From Bacteroidota bacterium (GTDB taxonomy: Bacteria; Bacteroidota; Ignavibacteria; SZUA-365): a stretch of DNA of 59,271 nt. The translations under genes were made by a program, and so were the position numbers. The notes beneath the pieces were generated by a model. That model saw only the letters and a program-made list of their open reading frames with translations. It did no database searches and had not been told where the DNA came from. This document shows, piece after piece, positions 4,393-38,009 of this stretch (positions are counted from its first letter, which is position 1; every line of letters begins with the position of its first letter). The DNA lies in contig JARYLZ010000011.1 of assembly GCA_029907355.1 (NCBI GenBank), positions 1 through 59,271 on the forward strand, in the 5' to 3' direction.

Positions 4393-5424
4393 ATGAATGA
4401 AACGTCGATTCACGAGAGGCTGAGTCCGGAGTTTCCCCTCACGGGGCGGCAGATTCTCAAGCATCTATTCCTGTTCCTCTTGACATTTCTCACGACGCTC
4501 GTCGCGGGAATGTTATGGCAGAACGAGACGGATCTCATCTTCATCGGGAAAGGTCTCCCGTACAGCCTCAGTCTTCTTTTCATCCTCTCGTGCCACGAGT
4601 TCGGTCACTACTTTGCGGCTCGGCGGCATGGTGTCCCTGTGACGCTTCCATACTTCATACCGCTTCCTCCCGTCAGCATCATAGGATTCGGAACCCTCGG
4701 TGCCGTGATCAGAACGCGGAAGAGGGTCGAAAGCTCCAAGGCATTGTTCGATATCGGGGTAGCGGGCCCAATCGCTGGTTTCATCGCGAGCATGCTCGTT
4801 CTCGCAGTCGGCTTCATGACTCTGCCTGGACCCGAGTTCATCCTGGGGATACACCCGGATTTCGATTTTACAATAGAGTCCGTTCCGGGTTTACCACCGG
4901 GTTCCGTTCTCACGTTCGGCAAGCCGATTCTTTACGGTGTATTTGCCGATCTCTTTGCACGTCCCGGCGCATGGATTCCCCCCATGTGGGAAATGTATCA
5001 TTACCCGTTCCTGATCACGGGCTGGTTCGGGCTTTTCGTCACCGCGATGAATCTCCTTCCTGTCGGCCAGCTGGATGGCGGCCATATTCTCTTCGCGCTA
5101 TCCCCGAAACTACACCGCCTCGTTGCACGGGTTGTTTTCATGAGCCTGCTTTGGTTCGGCGGCATGGGAATGCTCCCGGATTTTCTTCGACTGATCGGAC
5201 TTGAGTCATATGCTGTCCTGCTTGTTGACAATTTTTCAAATTATTATGCCGTATTTTGGTCCGGATGGATGATTTGGGCAGTGTTCCTCGCTTTCGTGGT
5301 AAAATTAGACCACCCCGAAGTTGTTGATTATCAAGAATTGGATCCTTCGCGACGTATACTGGGTTGGTTTTCTCTTGCAATATTTGCATTTTCGATAATA
5401 CCGGCACCTATATTTTTTCAATAA
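4393..5424 (+). CDS. Site-2 protease family (M50) membrane zinc metalloprotease
   Basis: Intramembrane metalloprotease of the S2P/M50 family, residing in the inner membrane and cleaving membrane-embedded substrates. The 343-residue product has several hydrophobic segments. The zinc site is complete: HEFGH at residues 68-72 and the second ligand motif LLPVGQLDGGH with Asp228. Between them are the family's GxxGPIAGF-like segment (VAGPIAGFIASML) and an insertion containing FTIESVPGLPPGSVLTFGKP. The shape resembles the EGY1/YUP-like subgroup without a PDZ domain rather than RseP. Its substrate is unknown. The region after it (5425-5595) is AT-rich and then carries a strong nested hairpin. Confidence 0.88.
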   Translation: MNETSIHERLSPEFPLTGRQILKHLFLFLLTFLTTLVAGMLWQNETDLIFIGKGLPYSLSLLFILSCHEFGHYFAARRHGVPVTLPYFIPLPPVSIIGFGTLGAVIRTRKRVESSKALFDIGVAGPIAGFIASMLVLAVGFMTLPGPEFILGIHPDFDFTIESVPGLPPGSVLTFGKPILYGVFADLFARPGAWIPPMWEMYHYPFLITGWFGLFVTAMNLLPVGQLDGGHILFALSPKLHRLVARVVFMSLLWFGGMGMLPDFLRLIGLESYAVLLVDNFSNYYAVFWSGWMIWAVFLAFVVKLDHPEVVDYQELDPSRRILGWFSLAIFAFSIIPAPIFFQ

Positions 5425-5595: not shown

Positions 5596-6414
5596 ATGAT
5601 CTATCGTTCATTCCTTCCCGCACTTTTCGGTTTCGTCTTTCTCGCGTGCAACGATACGTCGACGGTTGTCGATGTGAATTTCCCTGAGCCGCCGCCGGCG
5701 TTCATTTCCCTCACGCTTTCCTCGTACACGTTCGATACGGATTCGATGAGCATCGTCCCCGGGCGAAACAAGACGCCTGCGGACCCGGTGATGATCCGGA
5801 TTGGAATCGAAGCGACGGCCGACCTGGATGCGCGACAGGAAGCGCGCATCGTGCGCGCTTCCTGCACCGTGACGCCAGATGGAAAGGAACAGGTGATCGC
5901 ACAGAGCGATCTCGCCCGACAGACGGAGACGGTGTTCACGGGAACGGTACCTCTCTCGATCGCCCGAGGCGACGTAGGTGTTTACCGGGTGACGGTTGCG
6001 GGAGAGGATGCGATGGGGCGACAATCCGCCTCTATCCACACGACGTTCCGTGTCATAGCAGGCGCGAAGGCGCCGTTCTTTTGCGGCCTCACCGCGCCGG
6101 ATACGGTCGATCTCCCTCTCGAGGGCTTCGACATCATTCGCCTTGCACTCTGCGTGGATGATTCCAGCGGACGGGCGGACATCAAACGCGTCCTGTTCAA
6201 CTCGTTCCTTCCTAGCGGGAAACCATCGAGTGGGAATCCCTTTCCCATGTACGATGACGGGACTCACGGTGATATCACAGCGGGTGATGGGACATATTCG
6301 CTCGACGTTCAACTCCCGGCCACGGCGGAGCGGGGACGCTACCGCTTCGAGTTCTTCGCGTATGATCTCGGGAACCTGAGCGCATTCCTTTCCCATACCA
6401 TCGTCGTCCGGTGA
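5596..6414 (+). CDS. Probable surface/periplasmic lipoprotein with Ig-like repeats
   Basis: I do not recognise a characterised family. ATG 5596 gives a 272-residue protein with a short hydrophobic signal (FLPALFGFVFLAC) ending in a lipobox-like Cys18, so it is probably a lipoprotein, although the -3 position is Phe rather than Leu. The body is beta-rich and has two repeated modules; the second contains a DDGTHGDITAGDGTYS segment that is frequent in secreted proteins of the Bacteroidota/Chlorobiota group and ends in a HTIVVR strand. An in-frame TTG at 5470 would add 42 residues upstream of the signal and is unlikely. It is one base from the next gene and leads an apparent operon of envelope proteins. 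Confidence 0.72.
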   Translation: MIYRSFLPALFGFVFLACNDTSTVVDVNFPEPPPAFISLTLSSYTFDTDSMSIVPGRNKTPADPVMIRIGIEATADLDARQEARIVRASCTVTPDGKEQVIAQSDLARQTETVFTGTVPLSIARGDVGVYRVTVAGEDAMGRQSASIHTTFRVIAGAKAPFFCGLTAPDTVDLPLEGFDIIRLALCVDDSSGRADIKRVLFNSFLPSGKPSSGNPFPMYDDGTHGDITAGDGTYSLDVQLPATAERGRYRFEFFAYDLGNLSAFLSHTIVVR

Positions 6415-6415
6415 C

Positions 6416-8020
6416 ATGCAACGCGTGATCCGTTCTCTCGGCTTCGCTCCCGCGATCGTTGTTCTGCTCACCGCCTTGCAGGCACAGTCGCAGATCCTCC
6501 CCCTCGGGTTCCGGTTCGATGGAATTCGAACGAAAAATGGTTCCGATACGCGGCCGCTCAGCAACAGCGCCATCGATATTCGCACCCGAAGCGATACGAT
6601 TTGGGTGGGAGGTGGAAAAGGGATAGATCTGAGCCCCGACGGCGGTTTCACGTGGCGCCATATCGGTTCGGAAGAACCGTTCGAGCACGAAGACGTCGCG
6701 GCTTTCAACGGGTGCGGCCCGGTCCTCTGGGCTTCCCTTGCAGGCAGCGAACGTTTGAAAGACGGAACGGAAATCCCGAAGGGACTCGGTCTCGCCGTTT
6801 CCACCGATAATGGGAAGACTTGGTCACGTATCGAACAGCCCCGAGAGAACGAGAACGACTCGACCTTTCTGATCGAGTACGGGATCAACAAGATCAAGGG
6901 CCTTGCCATCACGACCACCTATAACAACATTACCTACGACATTGCGGTCACGAGTTCATCGGTATGGATCGCATCCTTCGCGGGTGGCCTGCGTCGCTCG
7001 ACGGACGGTGGGAGAACGTTTCACCCCATCGTGCTTCCCAGCGACGAAAAAGACAGTATCCGCGATACGGACACACTGGATTTCGCGCTCTCCCCGGTGG
7101 ATCGGCCGGATTTCTGGAACAGCGCGGGCACGGTGCTCGGCATGCGCGGCAGCCTGAACCACCGAGTGTTCTCCGTTCTCGCGACAGGGGATTCCACGGT
7201 ATGGGTCGGAACGGCGGGTGGTATCAATCGGACGACGGACAACGGCCGATCGTGGAGGAAATTCACCTTCTCGAACCAATCCCAGCCGATATCGGGAAAT
7301 TTCGTGGTTGCGCTCGGGAGGAATGTGATCGGCGGTATCGAGCACATCTGGGCATCGACGATCAATGCATTGGATCCCCATGAATTCCGCGCTGTAAGTG
7401 TGACGTCCGACAACGGTGAAACGTGGCGGACAGCCCTCCGGGGCGAGTTCACACATAACTTCGGTTTCAAGGACTCCATCGTCTACGCGGCGACGAACTC
7501 CGGCATTTTCCGCTCCGCCGATGGAGGGCGCACTTGGACGCTCCATTCCGTGTTCGTCGACCCCCTAAATCGGAATAGATCCATCGACCCGCGCTGTTAC
7601 GCGGTGGCGGCTGCGGGTGATACGATCTGGATCTCGAACGTGGACGGTCTCCTCAAGACCGTCGATTGCTCAGGGCATTTCTTCGGGGCGGGGTGGACGA
7701 TGCTCCGTGCTGCTCGACCGCTTTCCTCTGGGTCGAGCGCATATGCATACCCGAACCCCTTCATCCCTGTATCGGATGTATGCCGTATTCGGTACAGAAC
7801 GGCTTCTTCGGGTAAGGCCACGATCGAGGTCTTCGATTACGCATTGTTCCCTGTTCGTACGGTCATCCGGAACGCGCCGCGGCCTCCGAATCTCGAGCAA
7901 GATGAAATCTGGGACGGCACCGACGATGCAGGGAAGCGCGTGGCGAACGGATTGTACTACATCCGTATTCAGACAGGGGAAGGCGAGGATGTATGGACGA
8001 AAGTCGTGGTTCTCCAATGA
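6416..8020 (+). CDS. Secreted Asp-box beta-propeller protein with C-terminal sorting-like domain (PorZ-like architecture)
   Basis: The 534-residue product has an N-terminal signal peptide (IVVLLTALQAQSQ), then a single propeller defined by six clear Asp-boxes (SPDGGFTW, STDNGKTW, STDGGRTF, TTDNGRSW, TSDNGETW, SADGGRTW) and a degenerate seventh, and finally a beta-sandwich tail beginning YAYPNPF and ending NGLYYIRIQTGEGEDVWTKVVVLQ, which is the FlgD-like/T9SS type A pattern. No catalytic motif is visible. Its gene overlaps the first of two PorV/PorQ-like barrel genes by four bases. In known T9SS the attachment complex is PorU-PorV-PorQ-PorZ and PorZ is a propeller protein with an uncleaved C-terminal domain; the neighbourhood suggests an analogous role, but this is inference because PorZ of Porphyromonas has two propellers. 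Confidence 0.75.
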   Translation: MQRVIRSLGFAPAIVVLLTALQAQSQILPLGFRFDGIRTKNGSDTRPLSNSAIDIRTRSDTIWVGGGKGIDLSPDGGFTWRHIGSEEPFEHEDVAAFNGCGPVLWASLAGSERLKDGTEIPKGLGLAVSTDNGKTWSRIEQPRENENDSTFLIEYGINKIKGLAITTTYNNITYDIAVTSSSVWIASFAGGLRRSTDGGRTFHPIVLPSDEKDSIRDTDTLDFALSPVDRPDFWNSAGTVLGMRGSLNHRVFSVLATGDSTVWVGTAGGINRTTDNGRSWRKFTFSNQSQPISGNFVVALGRNVIGGIEHIWASTINALDPHEFRAVSVTSDNGETWRTALRGEFTHNFGFKDSIVYAATNSGIFRSADGGRTWTLHSVFVDPLNRNRSIDPRCYAVAAAGDTIWISNVDGLLKTVDCSGHFFGAGWTMLRAARPLSSGSSAYAYPNPFIPVSDVCRIRYRTASSGKATIEVFDYALFPVRTVIRNAPRPPNLEQDEIWDGTDDAGKRVANGLYYIRIQTGEGEDVWTKVVVLQ

Positions 8021-9123
8021 GAATGACGAAACGTCCTTTTGACGAAACGATCCGGTCTTACCGGAGCGAAGCCCGTGCGAGGCGAAACGGGAAGCCGGTG
8101 ATGGGCGAATCGAACGTCTTCTGCATCGGCATCGCTCTTGCGTTGGTTCTCTCTTGCACGATGCCCGCCGGCTCCCCTGCACAGGTCGGGGGAAAGGCGG
8201 GCGCTTTTACCCGTCTCGGATATGGGGCGCGTGCGCAGGGGATGGGCAATGCGATGACAGCCGTCGCGACGGGAGTCATCGCCGTTCCATACAACCCGGC
8301 TCTCTCGCCGTTTCAGCGTGGTCATATCCTCTATGGAACCTACGGCATTCTTTCGCTGGATAGGAAACTCAATCAACTTTTTTACACCCAAAGTATTCGA
8401 ATCCTGAGAAAAGGGGCACGAAAATACTCCGAGGATCCGGATGCGCAATCCCTCGCGGGTGTTTCGGCGGGCTGGGTGAACGCGGGCGACGCGGATATTC
8501 AAGGCTACGACTCCGACGGTTTCCCCACGGAAACATTCAGCATGTTCGAAAACCAGTTTTACCTCAATTTCGGGACGCGTTTGACGGAGCGATTCTCCGC
8601 GGGGTTCAGCGCAAAATTCTATTACTCCGGCCTATACCGGAACCTGACGAGTTCGGGGTTCGGTCTCGACTTCGGCATGCTCTATCGCGTGAGCGAGTGT
8701 TTCTCGGTAGGTTTCGTGGTGCAGGACCTCCTGACGAAATACAAGTGGGACACGAGCGTCCTGTACGGACCGGAAAATGGGCGCTCGACGGAAGACGAAT
8801 TCCCTCTCGTTCTGCGGGCTGGTCTGGCCGCTGTTCTCAAGAACTTGAACGGCATCCTGCTCGCGGCGGACATCGAGTGGATTGGGAGGGAAACGCTTCT
8901 CCTGCGCGTTGGTGCCGAACTCCAGATCGCCGAACCGTTTGCAGTCCGTGCAGGAATCGACCGGCTCGATCTCAGCGGGGATGGTATTGCCGCCCGCCCT
9001 TCGTGCGGTATCTCTTTCTCGCAACCCATCGCCTCGTTCCGACCCGAGTTGGTCTACGCCATCATTCTCGAACCCGTTGCCCCTTCACCCACCCATGCCC
9101 TCTCGTTCGTCCTTTCCTTCTAA
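8017..9123 (+). CDS. PorV/PorQ family outer-membrane beta-barrel protein (first copy)
   Basis: The product is 368 residues from ATG 8017, which overlaps the preceding stop (ATGA). A hydrophobic signal (IGIALALVLSCTMPAGSPAQ) follows a charged leader of about 35 residues; ATG 8101 would give a more usual signal peptide. The mature N-terminus carries the PorV/PorQ family hallmark GAFTRLGYGARAQGMGNAMTAV with an NPA motif (YNPALSPF) shortly after. The rest is alternating strands with aromatic belts and a C-terminal strand ending LSFVLSF, typical of an outer-membrane barrel. PorV-type proteins shuttle T9SS cargo to the attachment complex or form part of it. The function of this copy is inferred from family and neighbours. 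Confidence 0.82.
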   Translation: MRMTKRPFDETIRSYRSEARARRNGKPVMGESNVFCIGIALALVLSCTMPAGSPAQVGGKAGAFTRLGYGARAQGMGNAMTAVATGVIAVPYNPALSPFQRGHILYGTYGILSLDRKLNQLFYTQSIRILRKGARKYSEDPDAQSLAGVSAGWVNAGDADIQGYDSDGFPTETFSMFENQFYLNFGTRLTERFSAGFSAKFYYSGLYRNLTSSGFGLDFGMLYRVSECFSVGFVVQDLLTKYKWDTSVLYGPENGRSTEDEFPLVLRAGLAAVLKNLNGILLAADIEWIGRETLLLRVGAELQIAEPFAVRAGIDRLDLSGDGIAARPSCGISFSQPIASFRPELVYAIILEPVAPSPTHALSFVLSF

Positions 9124-10057
9124 TCGGCTCCTCGCACGTGGTGTTGCACGAGCGGTGCTGCCCGCTGTCGCTGCGATCGCCCTCTATTCGACGGTGTCCG
9201 CCCAGCCCGGTACGACAGGCATGTCATTCCTGAAAATCGGGGTTGGGGCTCGGAACGTCGCGATGGGGGAAACAGGCGTCGCCGGGGCGCAGGGAGGAGA
9301 ACAACTCTTTTTCAACCCTTCGCTCGCGATGAACGAGGAACGCTCCTGCTTGTCCATCATGCATCAGGAATCCGTCCAGGACATCACGACCCAGTATCTC
9401 GGCGCAATAGTCTTGTTCGACGGCTGGCGCATGGGGGCATCGCTCCATCTTTCGAGCGTAGAGGGAGTCGAGGTGCGAACAAAACCCGGCGAGGCCGTCG
9501 GGGAGTTCACGTCGAGGAACTTTGCCTTGGGCTTGTCCTTTGCCGCGCACCTGGGGGATGCCGTCGCCATCGGGGCGGGGGGGAAAGTACTCTTCGAAAA
9601 AGTATACGTCGACGAAGCGGGCGGGTTCGCCTTGGATGCCGGCATTCATCTCCGCCCCTTCAGCGCCGAATCTCTCCGCGATCTGACTTTCGGAGCATCC
9701 GTCGCGAACATCGGTTCTATGGGGAAGCTACGGAACGAGCCGACTTCTCTGCCCGTTACTGCGCGGTGCGGGGCATCGTACATGGTGCCGGTCCGGTCCG
9801 TGGAAGGGGCTCTCCGGATGGAATTGGATGCGGTCGCAATCCCTAAGGAAGAACGCGTTCACGTGCATGGAGGGCTGGAAGCCGGGTATCGGGAAACGAT
9901 TTTTTTCCGGATCGGATACATGAGCGGTTACGAGTTGAAAAACGTTTCCGCAGGTGCCGGCGTGGCATACGGGGGTGTCCGCCTCGATTACGCCATCGTA
10001 CCATACGCCGATTCGTTCGGGACCGTTCATACGTTCTCACTTTCTCTCGGTTTGTAA
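9095..10057 (+). CDS. PorV/PorQ family outer-membrane beta-barrel protein (second copy)
   Basis: From ATG 9095 the product is 320 residues; this start overlaps the upstream gene by 29 bases and gives a good signal peptide (AVLPAVAAIALYSTVSAQ). The mature end shows the family signature GMSFLKIGVGARNVAMGETGVAGA, then the FFNPSLA motif equivalent to the NPA motif of the first copy. The barrel continues to a terminal strand HTFSLSLGL with an aromatic/hydrophobic end. It shares layout but little sequence identity by eye with the first copy, so the two are ancient paralogues with probably distinct roles (one PorV-like, one PorQ-like). The frame runs through a G7 tract (9577-9583) that appears intact. 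Confidence 0.84.
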   Translation: MPSRSSFPSNRLLARGVARAVLPAVAAIALYSTVSAQPGTTGMSFLKIGVGARNVAMGETGVAGAQGGEQLFFNPSLAMNEERSCLSIMHQESVQDITTQYLGAIVLFDGWRMGASLHLSSVEGVEVRTKPGEAVGEFTSRNFALGLSFAAHLGDAVAIGAGGKVLFEKVYVDEAGGFALDAGIHLRPFSAESLRDLTFGASVANIGSMGKLRNEPTSLPVTARCGASYMVPVRSVEGALRMELDAVAIPKEERVHVHGGLEAGYRETIFFRIGYMSGYELKNVSAGAGVAYGGVRLDYAIVPYADSFGTVHTFSLSLGL

Positions 10058-10071
10058 AAAGAGCGGTTCAC

Positions 10072-11205
10072 ATGCCGCTTCCCCGCGTGTGCATGACATT
10101 GGTCGGTGATCCGCGGACGGACTCGCGGAGCCTTCGCTTCGCGCGCACTCTTGCGATGCGATACGAAGTTTGCGTGCTGTCTCTGGGTGAACGCGAAGAA
10201 TCGTTCGCCCAAGACGGTGTCCGCTACGAGGTGATAGAGCGGCGGAGTGCCAACCTCGCGAAATCCCTTCCGAATTTTTGGGGATATAACGGGCAGTTGT
10301 GCATGCAGGCTGTGTCCGTTTGGCTCGCATGCGATCTCTACAGTCTCCCACTGGCGGCACGGGCGAGCAGGAAAACCGCGTCGGTCCTCCTCTTCGACTC
10401 TCGGGAATATTACCCCTACATCGCATCCCTCACCGACAGGCCGTTCCGGCGTTGGTTTTGGCGGGGGGTGGAATGGAAATACGGACGAGGCGCTGGAGCT
10501 GTCTTCACCGTCAATCATTCCATTGCGGAACGCTTGCGCGCACGTTATCCCGGGAAACCTGTCGTCGTCGTCGGGAATTACCCGGATGCGGATGAAATCG
10601 TGCCGGACCAGAATTTCCGCCGCCGTCTTCATATCCCATCTGGACACATCCTGCTTCTCTCTCAGGGGGGTGTTCAACGGGGGCGGGGAGGGGCTCTCTC
10701 CGTGCGTGCGTTGAGACGTCTCGAGAACTGCACGCTCGTCTTTCTCGGTTCGGGAAACGAGGAAAGCAGGCTCCGGTCACTCGCCGAACGCTGTGGTGTT
10801 CAGGATCGTGTCCGCTTCCATCCCGCTGTGCCTTCGAAAGAGCTCCTTTCGCTCACGGCTGCCGCGGACATCGGACTCTGCATCATCGAACACGTCGGTG
10901 AAAGTTACTCGTTGGCATTGCCGAACAAGTTGTTCGAATATTTTGCGGCTGGTCTGCCGGTGATCGCGAGTGACGGCCCGGAAATCGCGCGAGTCGTCCG
11001 CGAGACTTCCGCAGGCCTTCTCATCCGCCCCGACGATGAGGAGGGTTTCATCGCAGCATGTAAGAGCTTGATCGAGAATGAAACGCTCCGTGCGGCATTC
11101 GCGGCCCGGGCTCGTGAGGCGTCATACAGGTTCCGATGGAAAAGTGAGGGTGAACGTCTCCTGAACGTGGTCCGCGAAGCCGTCGATTCATTGACCGCTC
11201 GTTAG
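10072..11205 (+). CDS. Glycosyltransferase family 4 (GT-B fold)
   Basis: Cytoplasmic retaining sugar transferase of the GT4 type, 377 residues. The N-terminal domain contains LVGDPRTDSRSLRFARTLA and the C-terminal Rossmann domain has the usual nucleotide-sugar elements: the LLSQGG strand, ENCTLVFLGSGNEESRL, the RVRFHPAVPSKELLSLTAAADIGL helix-strand pattern and the donor-binding PNKLFEYFAAGLPVIASDGPEIARVV segment with its conserved Glu. Donor and acceptor sugars cannot be predicted. It starts 14 bases after the second barrel gene and is the last gene of the run. Given the neighbours it may help build the lipopolysaccharide or glycan to which T9SS cargo is attached; that link is inference. Confidence 0.88.
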   Translation: MPLPRVCMTLVGDPRTDSRSLRFARTLAMRYEVCVLSLGEREESFAQDGVRYEVIERRSANLAKSLPNFWGYNGQLCMQAVSVWLACDLYSLPLAARASRKTASVLLFDSREYYPYIASLTDRPFRRWFWRGVEWKYGRGAGAVFTVNHSIAERLRARYPGKPVVVVGNYPDADEIVPDQNFRRRLHIPSGHILLLSQGGVQRGRGGALSVRALRRLENCTLVFLGSGNEESRLRSLAERCGVQDRVRFHPAVPSKELLSLTAAADIGLCIIEHVGESYSLALPNKLFEYFAAGLPVIASDGPEIARVVRETSAGLLIRPDDEEGFIAACKSLIENETLRAAFAARAREASYRFRWKSEGERLLNVVREAVDSLTAR

Positions 11206-13889: not shown

Positions 13890-16502
13890 ATGAAGACGTC
13901 TCTCCGTGGCACCATAACAGCTGTATTTATTTCGGCATTCGCCGTCGTTGCGTACGAGGCTTTTGAGCCGGTACCGACGGTCCCCCGTAAAAGCATCCCG
14001 CCGGGGTCGGTCCGGTCTCCAATCATGCGGGAGTATTTCTTTGCCCAGCGTCTGTATGGAAACCCCGACGTGAACATTTTCGAACGCATGCTGGAGGAGT
14101 GCGACCGTCTTTGCATCCAAGAAAAGCGATATGGGAAAAGTTCGTCGTTGCTCGATTTCTGGAAAGAGGAAGGTCCGTTGAATATCGCCGGGAGAATACG
14201 CGGCATCGCGATCCATCCGTCGAACCCGGATATCGTCTATCTCTGCACTGCTTCCGGTGGTGTCTGGAAATCGCTGAACTTCGGGCAATCCTGGTTCTGC
14301 ATCTCCAATGAATTCCCCATGCTTCCCGTCGGCGCCATCGCGATCGACCCGGGGAACCCGAACCGTGTGTACGCGGGGACCGGTGAACCGGCAGGCGCCG
14401 GTTACCAGAACGGTGGGTACACCAATGGCCGTATCAACGGCTCACCGATCTGGTCGGCGGGTGCTGGTGTCATGCGTTCGGATGACGGGGGAATGAACTG
14501 GAGCCAGAAAACGTGGAGCAACCCATACGCGGTGCACCGCCTGGCTGTCCACCCGGAGGGCGGGGACACCGTTCTCGCGGCGACGATTACAGGATTGTAT
14601 AAGACGACGAACGGCGGGAATTCATGGTCACGGACATCGGTCGGCGTGATCACGGATGTCCAGTACAAGCCCGGGCAGCCGAGCCGTGTTTATATCGCGA
14701 TGGGGGATGACGACGGAGATGCCGCCAACGGGATTTACGTCTCGGATGCAGGCGGGAGATCATTCTCGTGGCGGAAAACGGGAGTGAATTTCCCTGCCGG
14801 TGATTCCTGCGGCCGGATCTGCCTCGCCGTCTCCCCCGCAGACCCCGACCGTCTTTACGCAGCGGTGGCACGCAGTTTTCGCACGATCACATCGTCCGAG
14901 AACGACTTCCTCATGTTGCTCGTCAGCCGTGATGGAGGGGAAACATGGGAAAGAAAAATCAACGCCATCTCGACCTCCTTCACGAACGGGCAGGCGTATT
15001 ACGATCTCGCCCTTGCCGTCTCGCCGACGGATCCGGATTTCGTTCTTCTCGGCGGCTTGGATGTCCATCGAAGCACCAACGGAGGGACCAGCTTTGTACG
15101 GGTCTCCAGGGACGACGTTCCAATGACCGACGCTCGGTATGTCCACGTCGACATCCACGCGTTCGCTTTCAAACCGGGTGAGCCGAATACCATCATGGTG
15201 GGGAACGACGGGGGAATTAGTATTTCAACGGACCGGGGGAGTTCCTGGCAGCGTCGCGTGTTGAATCTCGGTACCGTCCAGTATTACACGTGCAACTACG
15301 ACCCTTCGAATCCCACAACATACGTGGGGGGATCCCAAGACAACGGTACCCATGGAAAGTTCACGACCGACAATGCGGCTTGGTACGAGTTGTATGGCGG
15401 GGACGGCGGCAGCATCGTCATTGACCCTGCACGACCGACGGTTCGATACTTGAATTCCCTTCTTTCCAATCCGAGTGGTCCGGGGTATGTACGCCCTGTC
15501 ATCCGCACCGGGATAGGGAACGCCCTCCCTATGTACTCCGGGCTGAACAGCGGGGAGAATCCGGACCGGTGGAACTGGATTCCACCCCTCCTCTTCCACC
15601 CCACGGACAGGACGCGACTCTACACCGCGACGCAGTACGTCTATGTCGTGCGGAACCCCGATGTCGGGAACAACCCTACCTGGCGGCTGATCAGCCCGGA
15701 ACTCGGTTCCATCGTGACCAAACTCGCCGTCGTTCCCTCGGATGGAGAACGGATGTATGCCGTGACCGCGAACGGTTGGGCGTGGGTCACGACGAATCTC
15801 TCGGCGACTTCCCCGACCTGGACGAAAATCTCAAACGGTCTTCCCGCGCGCTGGTTGACCGATATCGCGATCGACCCCTCCAACCCACAGAGCGTCTACG
15901 TGACGGCATCGGGATACGGAGCCGGCCACGTGTTCAAGACGACCGATGCCGGACAATCATGGGTCAATATCACGGGGGATCTTCCGGATATCCCCGCCAA
16001 TGCGATCGTGCGCTCACGGGACGACGCGAATACGCTCTTCGTGGCGACGGACCTTGGCGTCTTCGTCACGACGAACGGTGGGACCAACTGGCGGAGGTAC
16101 GGGACCGGTCTCCCAAACGTCATCGTGTACGACATGAAATTGACGCCGGACAATCGTCTTCTTGCAGCCACGTTCGGCCGGGGGATGTGGACGACGAGCG
16201 CTGTCGTTTCCGTGGGCAACACTCCCGCTGCGGCCTCGACTTTCACGCTGCATCAAAATTTCCCCACGCTTCCTTCGAACAACGAAACCTTCATCCCATT
16301 CTCGCTGGTGAGAAAAGCGGAGGTCTCGCTGCAGCTCTACGACGTGAGCGGTCGACTTCAGTGCGTCGTTTTCGAGGGGACGCTGTCCCCGGGTGAGCAT
16401 CGCATGCCTGTGCGCCTCGAGAAGCTTCCTGCGGGAACGTATTTCTACGCCTTGTCCTCCAATGGAGAACGACAGACCCGGAAATTGATCGTGATCCGCT
16501 GA
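13890..16502 (+). CDS. Large secreted Asp-box propeller protein with T9SS type A-like sorting domain (first of tandem pair)
   Basis: The 870-residue product begins with a hydrophobic signal (AVFISAFAVVAYEAF) and a conserved LYGNPDVNIFE element shared with its neighbour. The segment GPLNIAGRIRGIAIHPSNPD opens a large double-propeller region with repeated Asp-boxes (SDDGGMNW, TTNGGNSW, SRDGGETW, STNGGTSF, STDRGSSW, TTNGGTNW) of the sortilin/VPS10 or glycosidase-like type. The last about 85 residues (from FTLHQNFP to RKLIVIR) form the C-terminal sorting domain used by T9SS, with the NGERQTRKLIVIR ending. It is therefore expected to be exported across both membranes and anchored or released. No catalytic residues are identifiable and the ligand is unknown. 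Confidence 0.85.
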   Translation: MKTSLRGTITAVFISAFAVVAYEAFEPVPTVPRKSIPPGSVRSPIMREYFFAQRLYGNPDVNIFERMLEECDRLCIQEKRYGKSSSLLDFWKEEGPLNIAGRIRGIAIHPSNPDIVYLCTASGGVWKSLNFGQSWFCISNEFPMLPVGAIAIDPGNPNRVYAGTGEPAGAGYQNGGYTNGRINGSPIWSAGAGVMRSDDGGMNWSQKTWSNPYAVHRLAVHPEGGDTVLAATITGLYKTTNGGNSWSRTSVGVITDVQYKPGQPSRVYIAMGDDDGDAANGIYVSDAGGRSFSWRKTGVNFPAGDSCGRICLAVSPADPDRLYAAVARSFRTITSSENDFLMLLVSRDGGETWERKINAISTSFTNGQAYYDLALAVSPTDPDFVLLGGLDVHRSTNGGTSFVRVSRDDVPMTDARYVHVDIHAFAFKPGEPNTIMVGNDGGISISTDRGSSWQRRVLNLGTVQYYTCNYDPSNPTTYVGGSQDNGTHGKFTTDNAAWYELYGGDGGSIVIDPARPTVRYLNSLLSNPSGPGYVRPVIRTGIGNALPMYSGLNSGENPDRWNWIPPLLFHPTDRTRLYTATQYVYVVRNPDVGNNPTWRLISPELGSIVTKLAVVPSDGERMYAVTANGWAWVTTNLSATSPTWTKISNGLPARWLTDIAIDPSNPQSVYVTASGYGAGHVFKTTDAGQSWVNITGDLPDIPANAIVRSRDDANTLFVATDLGVFVTTNGGTNWRRYGTGLPNVIVYDMKLTPDNRLLAATFGRGMWTTSAVVSVGNTPAAASTFTLHQNFPTLPSNNETFIPFSLVRKAEVSLQLYDVSGRLQCVVFEGTLSPGEHRMPVRLEKLPAGTYFYALSSNGERQTRKLIVIR

Positions 16503-16642
16503 TCGACAATTGAACGCGTACAGGAGGCATGGAGGGACGCGTGCGAAGAACAGCCCTGCCCTGAGGTCGAGGGAAACCATCGCGGCATGTTCAGATGCAC
16601 GTCGCGACTGGGGAAAACCATGATGAAAGGAGTTCATGCTCG

Positions 16643-19243
16643 ATGAATCGTACCTGGAAAACCTTGGCGATGACGGTATTCGTCGGCGCGACCGCTTACA
16701 TCCTGATTCCTATTCCCAATGGCGGGTTCGAGGGAGGCCGTTGTGTGACCGGGTCACCGATACAACAAGAAGTTTCGGAGCGGGAATCGCCGGAGCAGAT
16801 GAACCTCTTCTACCAGATGCGCTTGTATGGGAATCCCGATGTCAACGTCTTTGAAAAGCTTTGGGCGACGGCCGAGGATCCGCGGGTTCGTGAACAGCTT
16901 TCGTTCCGGAAATCGAATCTCTCCCTGGAGAACGAGTGGGAATGCATGGGTCCTGTGAATATTTCCGGCCGTGTCCGCGCTCTCGCCGTTCATCCTACGA
17001 ATCCCGATATCATCTATGCGGCATCCGCAACGGGAGGGGTGTGGAAGACGACGAACGGGGGGAACGACTGGTACCCCCTGACGGACCAGACGCCGGCGCT
17101 CGCCTGCGGCGCTATCGCCATTGACCCTTTGAGACCGAACAGGATCTTCGTCGGGACGGGAGAGCCCGTAGCGGTCAATTCCCCTTCCCACAGCCGTGCG
17201 TCACCCGCCTATAGCGGCGTCGGGATTCTCCGTTCGGAAGACGACGGCGCGTCCTGGACACTTTTACCTTGGCCCAACTCCACGAGCATGATTCATCGTA
17301 TCGCCCTTCACCCGGATGACCCGGACACGATGCTCGTCGCGTCGACTTCCGATCTTTGGAAATCGACGAATGGTGGGCAATCCTGGACGCGTGTCCTGAC
17401 GGGGACGGCCACAGATGTCGTCTACACGCCGGGTCGTCCCTCCCGCGTCTACGCGGTTCTGGGAAATGACAACGGTTCCTCGTCGAACGGGGTATACGTT
17501 TCCGACGCGGGCGGGAAAAATTACTCGTGGGTGAAACTGTCGAACAATTTCCCGCGGGGGGACTCGACCGGCCGCATCATCATCGCTATCGCTCCCTCGA
17601 ACCCGAACCGCATTTACGCCGCGATCGCTCTGCGCCGCAGCCTCATCGTGAACGACGTCGGATTCTTCATGGTGTGCGTTTCGAACGACGGTGGTATGAC
17701 ATGGGAGCGAAGGCCGGGGGCGATTCCGAGGAATTTCACCAATTACATGCCGTACTACACGCTCGCCATGGCCGTATCCCCCGTGAATGAAAACTTCGTC
17801 ATGCTCGGGTCGGTCGACTGGTGGCGGAGTACGAATGGCGGGGTGACGTTCACACGGAACTCGGATTGGTCCCTCCGCACAACGAATCCCAACAGCCCAC
17901 GGTATGTCCATGCCGACCAGCACGCGATCGTTTTCAAGCCGGACGATCCGAACACGATCATCATCGGGAGCGATGGCGGGGTCCACGTCTCCACGAATCT
18001 CGGTGACGTGTGGAAGATGCGCACGTACGGGATGATCACGACGCAGTACTACGGAATATCGACGGACCCGACCATCCCCTATAAGATTTACGGGGGGACG
18101 CAGGACCAGAGCAATCAGCGGCAATCGGCCGTCGGCGATCGCAATTGGAGTTTCCTCGGCGGCGGGGACGGCTGTTCGGTCGCCGTTGACCCGCAGGTTC
18201 CGAGCAACATCTTCATCGTCGTGAACGGAAACCCGCAACGTTCGACGAACAGCGGTACATCGTTTTCTCAAATCACCAACGGTCTCAATGGAGGACCGGC
18301 AGCCGACCGGGAGTATTGGTGGCGTCCTATGGCGTTCCACCCTGGTGACCGTACGACCCTCTATATCTCTTCGCAGTACATGTACCGGATGAGGAACCCG
18401 TCTGCATCGGATCCGATGTGGCAGATCATCAGCCCGGACCTCACCCGCGGATCCGTTATTGCGGATTTCCATGTCCCGCCTGCGAACACCAACTGGATGT
18501 ACACGACATCCGGGGATGGGAAAGCGTACCGCTGCGAAAACATTCGGGCTGCTGAACCCGTGTGGGTCGATATCAGTGCCGGCTTGCCGAACCGCTGGTT
18601 GCCGCGTGTCACGTCGGACCCCGAGGATCACCGGACGGTGTACGTCGCCGTCTCCGGTTATGGGACGCCGCATATGTTCAAGTCGACCGATGCAGGGGAG
18701 ACGTGGGTGAACATTACGGGGGATTTTCCCGACATTCCGGTCGGGGCCGTGTACCGTTCTCCCCATGACCCGAACGTGCTCTTTGCAGCGTCGGACATGG
18801 GCGTTTGGTACACGAGCGACGGCGGGGCACACTGGCAGAGGTACGGAATGGGACTGCCCAATTGTGTCGTCTACGACATGATTATCGCACCGGACGGGAA
18901 ACTCATCGCGGGCACCTATGGGAGGGGTGTTTGGGTTACGAGTTCCGTCCTCCGAACGGAGCGGACACCTTCCACACCGCGCGGACCTTCTCTCGAAGGG
19001 AACCACCCAAACCCGTTCTCCTCGTCGACCATGATCACGTTCTCCCTCCCCGAGAGGGAACGCGTCCGCATTACCGTTTCCGACCAATCGGGTCGCATCG
19101 TCCGGACATTGTCGGAAGGTGTTCTAGAAGCGGGTAGGTACAATTTCACGTTCCATGGTGCCGGTCTCCCGAACGGTGTCTACTACTGCACCATGAACGC
19201 CGGCGGTTTCATCGCGACGCGAAAATTGACCCTCCTACGCTAG
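16643..19243 (+). CDS. Large secreted Asp-box propeller protein with T9SS type A-like sorting domain (second of tandem pair)
   Basis: The 866-residue product is a paralogue of the preceding gene, sharing the LYGNPDVNVFEKLW element, the GPVNISGRVRALAVHPTNPD opening, the Asp-box series (TTNGGNDW, SEDDGASW, STNGGQSW, SNDGGMTW, STNGGVTF, STDAGETW, TSDGGAHW) and a C-terminal domain from LEGNHPNPFSSSTMI to ATRKLTLLR. ATG 16643 is chosen because aaaggag at 16626-16632 lies ten bases upstream and the signal (TLAMTVFVGATAYILIPI) follows directly; ATG 16635 is in another frame. The Tandem arrangement indicates duplication followed by divergence. Likely a T9SS-exported surface protein with an adhesive or binding role, by inference only. 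Confidence 0.85.
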   Translation: MNRTWKTLAMTVFVGATAYILIPIPNGGFEGGRCVTGSPIQQEVSERESPEQMNLFYQMRLYGNPDVNVFEKLWATAEDPRVREQLSFRKSNLSLENEWECMGPVNISGRVRALAVHPTNPDIIYAASATGGVWKTTNGGNDWYPLTDQTPALACGAIAIDPLRPNRIFVGTGEPVAVNSPSHSRASPAYSGVGILRSEDDGASWTLLPWPNSTSMIHRIALHPDDPDTMLVASTSDLWKSTNGGQSWTRVLTGTATDVVYTPGRPSRVYAVLGNDNGSSSNGVYVSDAGGKNYSWVKLSNNFPRGDSTGRIIIAIAPSNPNRIYAAIALRRSLIVNDVGFFMVCVSNDGGMTWERRPGAIPRNFTNYMPYYTLAMAVSPVNENFVMLGSVDWWRSTNGGVTFTRNSDWSLRTTNPNSPRYVHADQHAIVFKPDDPNTIIIGSDGGVHVSTNLGDVWKMRTYGMITTQYYGISTDPTIPYKIYGGTQDQSNQRQSAVGDRNWSFLGGGDGCSVAVDPQVPSNIFIVVNGNPQRSTNSGTSFSQITNGLNGGPAADREYWWRPMAFHPGDRTTLYISSQYMYRMRNPSASDPMWQIISPDLTRGSVIADFHVPPANTNWMYTTSGDGKAYRCENIRAAEPVWVDISAGLPNRWLPRVTSDPEDHRTVYVAVSGYGTPHMFKSTDAGETWVNITGDFPDIPVGAVYRSPHDPNVLFAASDMGVWYTSDGGAHWQRYGMGLPNCVVYDMIIAPDGKLIAGTYGRGVWVTSSVLRTERTPSTPRGPSLEGNHPNPFSSSTMITFSLPERERVRITVSDQSGRIVRTLSEGVLEAGRYNFTFHGAGLPNGVYYCTMNAGGFIATRKLTLLR

Positions 19244-35832: not shown

Positions 35833-35912
35833 TACGGTCGTTTTCAAAAGGGGAAGAAGGCGGGCCAGATGTCCGATGAGCCTCTGACTCCACTAACTTG
35901 GGGGATACTCTC

Positions 35913-38009
35913 ATGAACAGTACGATCGGCAACGGGCTCGTCAAGACGTCCTTCGCGGTTGTTCTCATTCTCCGGTGGGCTTTCCCGAGTCCGACTGTGG
36001 CGCAATCGCGGCTCCCACTTTCCCTGCACTGTCGTGATGCGAGGGTCGTTCGGGCGGATTTCACGGTAACAGAGGACGCAAACCCCGGTACGCTCACTAC
36101 CTCGCCAATCGATGCGAAAGGAGCGCATGTCCCCGGTTTACGCGATGTCGATTTTGTAGTGTCCCGGGGAAAAAAATTCGGCGAGATACTCTCCGTCACC
36201 GAGTTGACCGCCGTTGAAAACACGGTCATGCGGATCGTCGTGATGGTAGACAACAGCCAATCGATGAGCCCGTATCTCCGAATGCTCCGGGAAACCCTTG
36301 CGGACCTTGTAGGGCGTTTCAGTCCGGCAGTGCGCGTTTCGATGATTTTTTTCAACGAACAGCAACTGAAGAACCCTCCATACGAGTACAACGGTAAACC
36401 ACTCCCTCTCGTCCGTTATCCTTTCACGAACGAGAAAGCGAGGATTGTCGAATATTCGACGCGAATGTTGACCGAGAGGTTGTTGACGAAGCGCACCTAT
36501 CTCTATGACGGCGTGTGGGGTGTTCTTCAACAAATCGCGGCGGATACCGGTATGGTTGACAAGAGTTTCGCTATCGTGTTCAGCGACGGCGCTGATAATG
36601 CCAGCACGGTCGACCCCCAAACCGTTCTGCGGTCGGACCGCCGCAATACAGTCTTTTTCACGATCGATTACTTGACCGAGGAGAACGACTTTCTCGTCCG
36701 TCTCGCAGAACGCAGCGGGGGACGTCACTTCCAGGCGAAGAAAGCGGAAGAACTCCGAGGCATATTCGAGGAAATCGCCCAAAAAATCGTTGCCCGCGGT
36801 TACGCGGTACGCTATCGGTTTAAGGCTCCGCCTACAGTATCCATTGCCCTTTCAACCGATTCGTTGATCATGGAGGAGGAAATTGTCCGCGAGACGTTCC
36901 CGTTGCTGAACTACGTGTTTTTCGAGCAGGGTTCAGGCGTCATCCCACCGAGGTATGTTCTCTTGAACGCGGAGAAAGCCCGCACGTTCGATGAGCAGGC
37001 TGTTGAAGGCGATGCGATGGAGTACTATCGGAACGTTTTGAACATCATCGGCAGCCGCTTGCGGAAGCGGGAAAACGCCCACGTTCGCATCGCGGGATAT
37101 GTCAACGATTTCGGCTATGAAAAAAAGAACGCGATTCTCGCCTCCGATCGCGCCAACGCCGTGCGTTCCTACCTGATGACCGTGTGGGGCATCGAGGGAG
37201 AACGATTGGAAACCGTGACCGGTCTTCTCCCTCCCATCCCATCGACTAACCGTGAAGAAGAAGGACGCGCGGAGAACAGCCGTGTCGAGATCACGTCCGA
37301 CGACTGGGAAATTCTCAAACCGGTGACATTCATCCGAAGACAGGCGACCTTCGTTCCTGAGACTGTCACCATTTTCCCCGCTCTGAATGCGGAAGAGGGT
37401 TTGTCTCGATGGATGCTGAAGGTCCGGCAGGAAGACGACGTCTTCGATGAACGGACAGGGAATGAACTCGAGAAGCGAATACTCTGGAACTGGAAAAACC
37501 GTCGGGGCGAAATCCCGAAATCCACCGGTGTGATTCGCATCTCCCTCGTTGTGGAAGATTCGGCGGGGGATACCGCTGCGGCTGAGGCCCCACCCGTCAT
37601 CGTCCGCGAACTGAAACGAGAACAGAGAAGGAATGTGATATTCGAAGACGGGGTTACGAGGGAAAAGATCAGTCTGATTCTTTTTCCGTTCGATGTCTTC
37701 ACGCCCGGCCCATTGAACGAAACCATCATGGATGAGTTCGTCACCCCGCGTCTCAAGTCGGGATGTACCGTTCGCATCGTCGGTCACACGGACGCCATCG
37801 GGACGAGCGAATACAACCTGATCCTTTCACGGAATCGAGCGGAACAAGTGCGCGCGTACTTGCAGAAACGGTCAGCCGGCATCGTTGCATCATCGGACAT
37901 CACCGCAGACGGCGTGGGCGAAGACACCCCGATATTCCCGAACACTCTCCCTGAAAACCGATTCTACAACAGGACGGTCGAGATCATCATCGAGGCTGCA
38001 GCGCGCTGA
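35913..38009 (+). CDS. VWA domain protein with two OmpA-like domains
   Basis: The 698-residue product has a signal peptide (VVLILRWAFPSPTVAQ), then a von Willebrand A-type domain with the MIDAS motif DNSQS at residues 113-117, and a second segment FVFSDGADNAS. Two OmpA/MotB-like peptidoglycan-binding-type domains follow: one near residues 340-480 (VRIAGYVNDFG, DRANAVRSYL, NSRVEI) and one at the C-terminus (VRIVGHTDAIGTSEYN, NRAEQVRAYLQK, NRTVEIII). This double-OmpA plus VWA layout suggests an envelope-tethered adhesion or assembly factor. The start at ATG 35913 follows gggggat upstream. The stop is 6 bases from the convergent bshC stop. Confidence 0.82.
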   Translation: MNSTIGNGLVKTSFAVVLILRWAFPSPTVAQSRLPLSLHCRDARVVRADFTVTEDANPGTLTTSPIDAKGAHVPGLRDVDFVVSRGKKFGEILSVTELTAVENTVMRIVVMVDNSQSMSPYLRMLRETLADLVGRFSPAVRVSMIFFNEQQLKNPPYEYNGKPLPLVRYPFTNEKARIVEYSTRMLTERLLTKRTYLYDGVWGVLQQIAADTGMVDKSFAIVFSDGADNASTVDPQTVLRSDRRNTVFFTIDYLTEENDFLVRLAERSGGRHFQAKKAEELRGIFEEIAQKIVARGYAVRYRFKAPPTVSIALSTDSLIMEEEIVRETFPLLNYVFFEQGSGVIPPRYVLLNAEKARTFDEQAVEGDAMEYYRNVLNIIGSRLRKRENAHVRIAGYVNDFGYEKKNAILASDRANAVRSYLMTVWGIEGERLETVTGLLPPIPSTNREEEGRAENSRVEITSDDWEILKPVTFIRRQATFVPETVTIFPALNAEEGLSRWMLKVRQEDDVFDERTGNELEKRILWNWKNRRGEIPKSTGVIRISLVVEDSAGDTAAAEAPPVIVRELKREQRRNVIFEDGVTREKISLILFPFDVFTPGPLNETIMDEFVTPRLKSGCTVRIVGHTDAIGTSEYNLILSRNRAEQVRAYLQKRSAGIVASSDITADGVGEDTPIFPNTLPENRFYNRTVEIIIEAAAR

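Follow-up and report, generated by a model that had tools for sequence, protein, structure and literature searches.

Knowledge of the T9SS comes almost wholly from Porphyromonas and Flavobacterium, and PorZ is the component which, having bound A-LPS, passes it on to PorU. PorQ-PorZ is a pair of a PorV-family barrel and a propeller protein that keeps its T9SS C-terminal domain (CTD); the CTDs of both PorU and PorZ have been reported to remain uncleaved and bound to PorV and PorQ (PMC10202324; PMC8545088). In the PorP/SprF-like shuttles a dedicated PorV-like barrel is genetically linked to a type B CTD client (PMC12618676), and PorV2 (NF052325) is a further sorting barrel of the PorV family. The BAM complex of Bacteroidota carries an extracellular dome (BamG-K) with a similar mixture of parts, in which the FadL-like barrel BamG is combined with surface lipoproteins, among them BamH, and the propeller BamI (PMC12578637). 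Here we describe a propeller protein with a CTD (PROP) and a PorV/PorQ-family barrel (BAR1) that form a near-obligate, single-copy and usually gene-adjacent pair, mostly accompanied by a lipoprotein (LIPO) and a second barrel (BAR2) and present only in genomes with SprA. The module presumably works like PorQ-PorZ, yet its proteins fall outside PorZ, PorQ and PorV.

The window, that is the whole analysed stretch of 59,271 nucleotides, carries five genes on the plus strand between positions 5596 and 11205. LIPO (5596-6414) is an outer-membrane lipoprotein with a lipobox and an Ig-like/choice-of-anchor-X domain (NF041940, 3e-9). PROP (6416-8020) consists of a signal peptide, a seven-bladed BNR propeller and a T9SS-type CTD (7733-8017), and is followed by the PorV/PorQ-family (FadL-like) outer-membrane barrel BAR1 (8101-9123, with alternative starts at 7993 and 8017), the second barrel of this family, BAR2 (9095-10057), and the glycosyltransferase GT4 (10072-11205; Pfam Glycos_transf_1, 1.5e-21), a lineage-specific downstream member. 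The unit reaches one gene further upstream, to an M50 site-2-type membrane protease (4393-5424, plus strand; HEFGH; NLLPVGQLDGGH; Pfam Peptidase_M50, 1.5e-22). A first-pass annotation had proposed a five-gene operon of lipoprotein, propeller with CTD, two barrels and GT4, and this description is borne out by the domain matches and by a gene order that is kept in 80 GTDB loci. Its statement that gaps and overlaps amount to at most 29 bases, the length of the overlap between BAR1 and the BAR2 start at 9095, holds if BAR1 begins at ATG 7993 or ATG 8017, both of which overlap the PROP stop; it does not hold for ATG 8101, which is preceded by GGGAAG, is directly followed by a signal peptide and leaves 80 bases between PROP and BAR1.

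Searching GTDB genomes with a BAR1 profile yielded 227 relatives, and gene neighbourhoods were collected for the best 80 of the 227, mostly records labelled Ignavibacteria, Melioribacter(aceae), Ignavibacteriaceae or unclassified Bacteroidetes. LIPO, PROP, BAR1 and BAR2 follow each other in the same order and on the same strand in these 80 Ignavibacteria-type loci, with gaps mostly at contig ends and with a median spacing of -1 for both LIPO-PROP and PROP-BAR1. The conserved order that had been named as supporting evidence is thus present in 80 species and lies far beyond chance. In a survey of 395 genomes of the phylum, BAR1 was detected in 168, PROP in 167 and both together in 165, with five discordant genomes, and the two proteins are encoded in single copy across many families. 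PROP and/or LIPO adjoin BAR1 in 18 of 19 loci from outside the class, the remaining one (L245) having only BAR2 beside BAR1. These loci display the orders BAR1-LIPO-PROP, M50-LIPO-PROP-BAR1 without BAR2, and PROP-BAR1-BAR2 without a recognisable LIPO. As orders and members vary in this manner, PROP and BAR1 are to be regarded as the core, LIPO and BAR2 being missing in some lineages (BAR2, for example, in L228, L230, L239, L243, L244 and L246). Co-occurrence with BAR1 in 165 genomes also rules out that PROP is an ordinary T9SS cargo protein without a conserved link to a PorV-like gene, the outcome that would have spoken against the initial proposal.

The tie to the SprA translocon is strict. 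SprA is encoded in all 168 genomes with BAR1, and BAR1 in none of the 92 genomes lacking SprA (Fisher 4.6e-27, kinship not corrected for); BAR1 thereby occurs only with the SprA translocon, as a T9SS-associated component should. On the other hand, 135 of the 303 SprA-positive genomes do not encode BAR1. The SprA-positive families without the module include all those with PorZ scores above about 465 bits, and we infer that these families represent the class Bacteroidia, because the models derive from Bacteroidia. Porphyromonas and Flavobacterium themselves seem to be without the module.

PROP contains BNR repeats and a weakly matching FlgD-like C-terminal domain (FlgD_ig, 0.001). Its AlphaFold model (pLDDT 91.4, pTM 0.87) consists of one propeller, approximately residues 50-430, with seven blades as counted from the strands, and a seven-stranded Ig-like CTD at about residues 440-534 (442-532), the C-terminal architecture of type A T9SS clients. 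The best PDB match of the model is PorZ (5M11; E 2.6e-13, TM 0.34), so that the PorZ-like fold expected for this product is in fact predicted. The low TM is due to the presence of two propellers in PorZ, and propellers resemble one another; by TM to the target (0.6), Ycf48 propellers fit PROP better than PorZ does. Profile-profile comparison aligns PROP with the second propeller and the CTD of PorZ (E 2.4e-14). PROP is not PorZ, however: it reaches 15.8 bits against the PorZ equivalog NF052228 with its cut-off of 260, its model has a single propeller plus CTD in place of two propellers, and the true PorZ is encoded separately at C173. The CTD is of a particular kind. The PorU model is matched by 66 of 71 PROP orthologues and the general sorting tail TIGR04183 by 15 of 71; in all five orthologues inspected singly the PorU-model match is located in the CTD. 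With an HMM of the PROP CTD, five of five PorU CTDs rank first, followed by PorZ and one cargo protein, margins being a few bits. PorU and PorZ accordingly have the CTDs that the PROP CTD resembles most, ahead of nearly all cargo CTDs, the preference for PorU amounting to only a few bits.

The barrels appear to belong to the same broad family as PorV and PorQ without being either. BAR2 exceeds the subfamily cut-off of 90 bits of the PorV family model NF033709 (142.5 bits), BAR1 stays below it (77.5 bits, E 1e-21), and both score 25-61 bits against the PorV and PorQ equivalogs, whose cut-offs are 250 and 220. An identity with PorV2, whose cut-off is 325 bits, was ruled out by scores of 34 (BAR1) and 50 bits (BAR2). 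BAR1, BAR2, PorQ and PorV each form one clade with 99-100% bootstrap in a tree of 90 sequences; with this tree rooted at its midpoint only, PorV and PorQ lie closer together than either does to BAR1. The AlphaFold model of BAR1 (pLDDT 92.3) best matches the PorV chains 8gl6_F and 6h3i_F (TM ~0.64), and PorV is also the sole PDB match of the BAR1 sequence profile (E 0.007). TodX, TbuX and FadL come next after PorV among the structural matches, which might indicate that BAR1 and BAR2 import hydrophobic compounds in the manner of FadL and TodX, with PROP as cargo that captures the substrate for them. Such a role is improbable, since all 72 BAR1 orthologues match PorV/PorQ models, with no FadL model among their NCBIfam matches, and since the genes are strictly tied to SprA and to a CTD protein and occur in single copy over many families. 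Even less probable is a counterpart of the BAM dome, to which the joint presence of a FadL-like barrel, a surface lipoprotein and a propeller, weak matches of three PROP orthologues to the BamI model NF053688 and barrels from BAM structures among the lower-ranked BAR1 hits could point: PROP is a CTD protein and no lipoprotein, BAR1 is structurally closer to PorV than to the BAM barrel (TM 0.64 versus 0.52), and the module tracks SprA rather than BamA, BAM being universal. The PorV chains that BAR1 resembles most originate from substrate-bound SprA translocon complexes. Together with the strict SprA dependence and the persistence of the module in genomes devoid of PorU and PorZ (see below), this could mean that BAR1, possibly with BAR2, is an alternative SprA-associated carrier in translocation and PROP a cap- or plug-like translocon accessory rather than a product for surface display. 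We consider this unlikely, because the SprA-positive genomes without BAR1 demonstrate that the translocon does not need it, and because PROP possesses a CTD of its own just as client proteins do.

The genome from which the window derives (3.25 Mb, 98.9% complete, ~95 T9SS sorting-tail matches) harbors a complete canonical set elsewhere: PorU at C162 (943 bits, cut-off 420) with PorV adjoining it, PorQ at C118 (248 bits, cut-off 220) and PorZ at C173 (345 bits, cut-off 260). At C148 and C129 of this genome (loci L019-L021), three more long C25 proteins of ~1800 amino acids are encoded, which are PorU2-like by length. Among 61 genomes comprising this one and relatives, module-less families included, 60 have PorU, 51 PorZ and 45 PorQ above cut-off. 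No C25 sortase gene is present among the module genes, in agreement with the first-pass annotation, which had noticed that PorU was missing from the set. Its suggestion that the genes represent the PorU/V/Q/Z attachment complex in a distant or rearranged form is refuted as stated. The kinds of parts are indeed the same, PorV-family barrels and a propeller protein with CTD, and the part of PorZ made up of its second propeller and CTD does align with PROP; however, canonical PorU, PorV, PorQ and PorZ all reside elsewhere in the same genome, BAR1 and BAR2 form clades separate from PorV and PorQ, and the module survives where PorU and PorZ are gone, which leaves this explanation hardly any probability.

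Independence from PorU and PorZ is seen in genomes that lack them. PorZ was not found at E 1e-30 in 22 of the 167 PROP-bearing genomes, and 20 of these 22, all with completeness of 96-100%, are also without PorU above cut-off: in one family the members have nothing beyond a C25 protein of 168-190 bits and the others have none, while control genomes reach 955-1007 bits. The PROP CTD is retained in the PorU-less loci that were read. As the module is kept in these 20 genomes, the PROP CTD does not serve for cleavage by PorU there. The 20 genomes, among them G190 and G152, are SprA-positive and still encode some CTD proteins. Counts that are rough, because some of the seeds of the scan were taken from the wrong strand, gave 2-3 CTD proteins other than PROP in 400 kb each of G190 and G152 compared with 6 in the PorU-containing genome G064; they lend no support to a T9SS dedicated to PROP alone.

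The module is best explained as a third pair of a barrel and a CTD-retaining protein, parallel to PorV-PorU and PorQ-PorZ (probability about 0.58), because the fold of PROP is nearest to PorZ, its CTD is nearest to that of PorU and BAR1 is nearest to PorV. It is set apart from PorV-PorU by the lack of a C25 peptidase, by the position of BAR1 outside the PorV clade and by its maintenance without PorU. From PorQ-PorZ, which coexists with it in the same genome, it differs in the single propeller and sub-threshold PorZ score of PROP, in barrels of other clades and in being one operon that includes a lipoprotein. The link of a dedicated barrel to its CTD protein recalls the PorP/SprF-like shuttles, but the PROP CTD is type A and PorU-like and the module barrels match the PorV/PorQ family model. 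PROP would be transported across the inner membrane by Sec and then, by means of its CTD, through SprA across the outer membrane. The uncut CTD would be held by the extracellular loops of BAR1, and the propeller would thereby be displayed on the cell surface. A PROP-BAR1 complex is suggested, though not proven, by co-occurrence and operon structure. LIPO may be a lipoprotein partner at the surface, and BAR2 could speculatively provide an additional dock or shuttle. What the propeller binds is most likely a glycan of the envelope or some other ligand on the surface, reminiscent of PorZ and A-LPS; this is the weakest and a speculative step, because fold and glycan-gene neighbourhood are its only basis. 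More tentatively still, the pair may constitute a third, PorU-independent mode of T9SS surface display that is ancient in the phylum, was lost from or never present in the class of all model T9SS organisms and is the main surviving anchoring module where PorU and PorZ are gone, an extension that we regard as possible but doubtful.

The remaining components are less uniform, and roles for BAR2, M50 and GT4 are speculative. All 63 LIPO orthologues contain the lipobox cysteine (Cys18). Acidic residues at positions +1 to +6 serve as a rule of thumb for surface lipoproteins (PMC12578637); 48 of the 63 have at least two of them, the LIPO of the window only one, and from these sequence features LIPO is probably surface-exposed. 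Its Ig-like matches are weak and its structure matches include no useful solved relative. The M50 gene precedes LIPO in ~53 of the 80 Ignavibacteria-type loci, about two thirds, as well as in many loci outside the class, and is therefore a frequent, not an invariant, upstream member. GT4 lies within reach in 29 of the 80 loci, follows BAR2 in the order to which this genome belongs and in some other families, with tight BAR2-GT4 spacing in some families only, and is elsewhere replaced by genes for a FemAB/GNAT acyltransferase, another glycosyltransferase, a Wzx-like flippase or thioredoxin. Varying by lineage, it was rejected as a core member, and the earlier notion that the set comes with its own glycan transferase does not apply to the conserved core. 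In loci L074, L077, L078 and their kin the module is flanked upstream by polysaccharide deacetylase/GT2 genes and downstream by acyltransferase/GT4/Wzx flippase genes.

No description of this module was found in the open-access literature on PorV-like and PorQ-like proteins, PorU2/PorV2 and the T9SS of Ignavibacteria, and one may exist elsewhere. A single-copy, SprA-linked pair of barrel and CTD protein across other Bacteroidota lineages would be a class of components that the standard model has missed. It also makes testable whether a cognate PorV-like barrel shields a CTD from cleavage, as has been proposed for PorZ and PorQ (PMC10202324).

Elsewhere in the window, positions 35898-38009 encode a protein in which von Willebrand A and OmpA domains are combined. 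At 13890-19243 two large propeller proteins of the sortilin/Vps10 type are encoded in tandem; both have T9SS type A tails and seem to be cargo that arose by duplication, and a similar gene is kept near the module in relatives.
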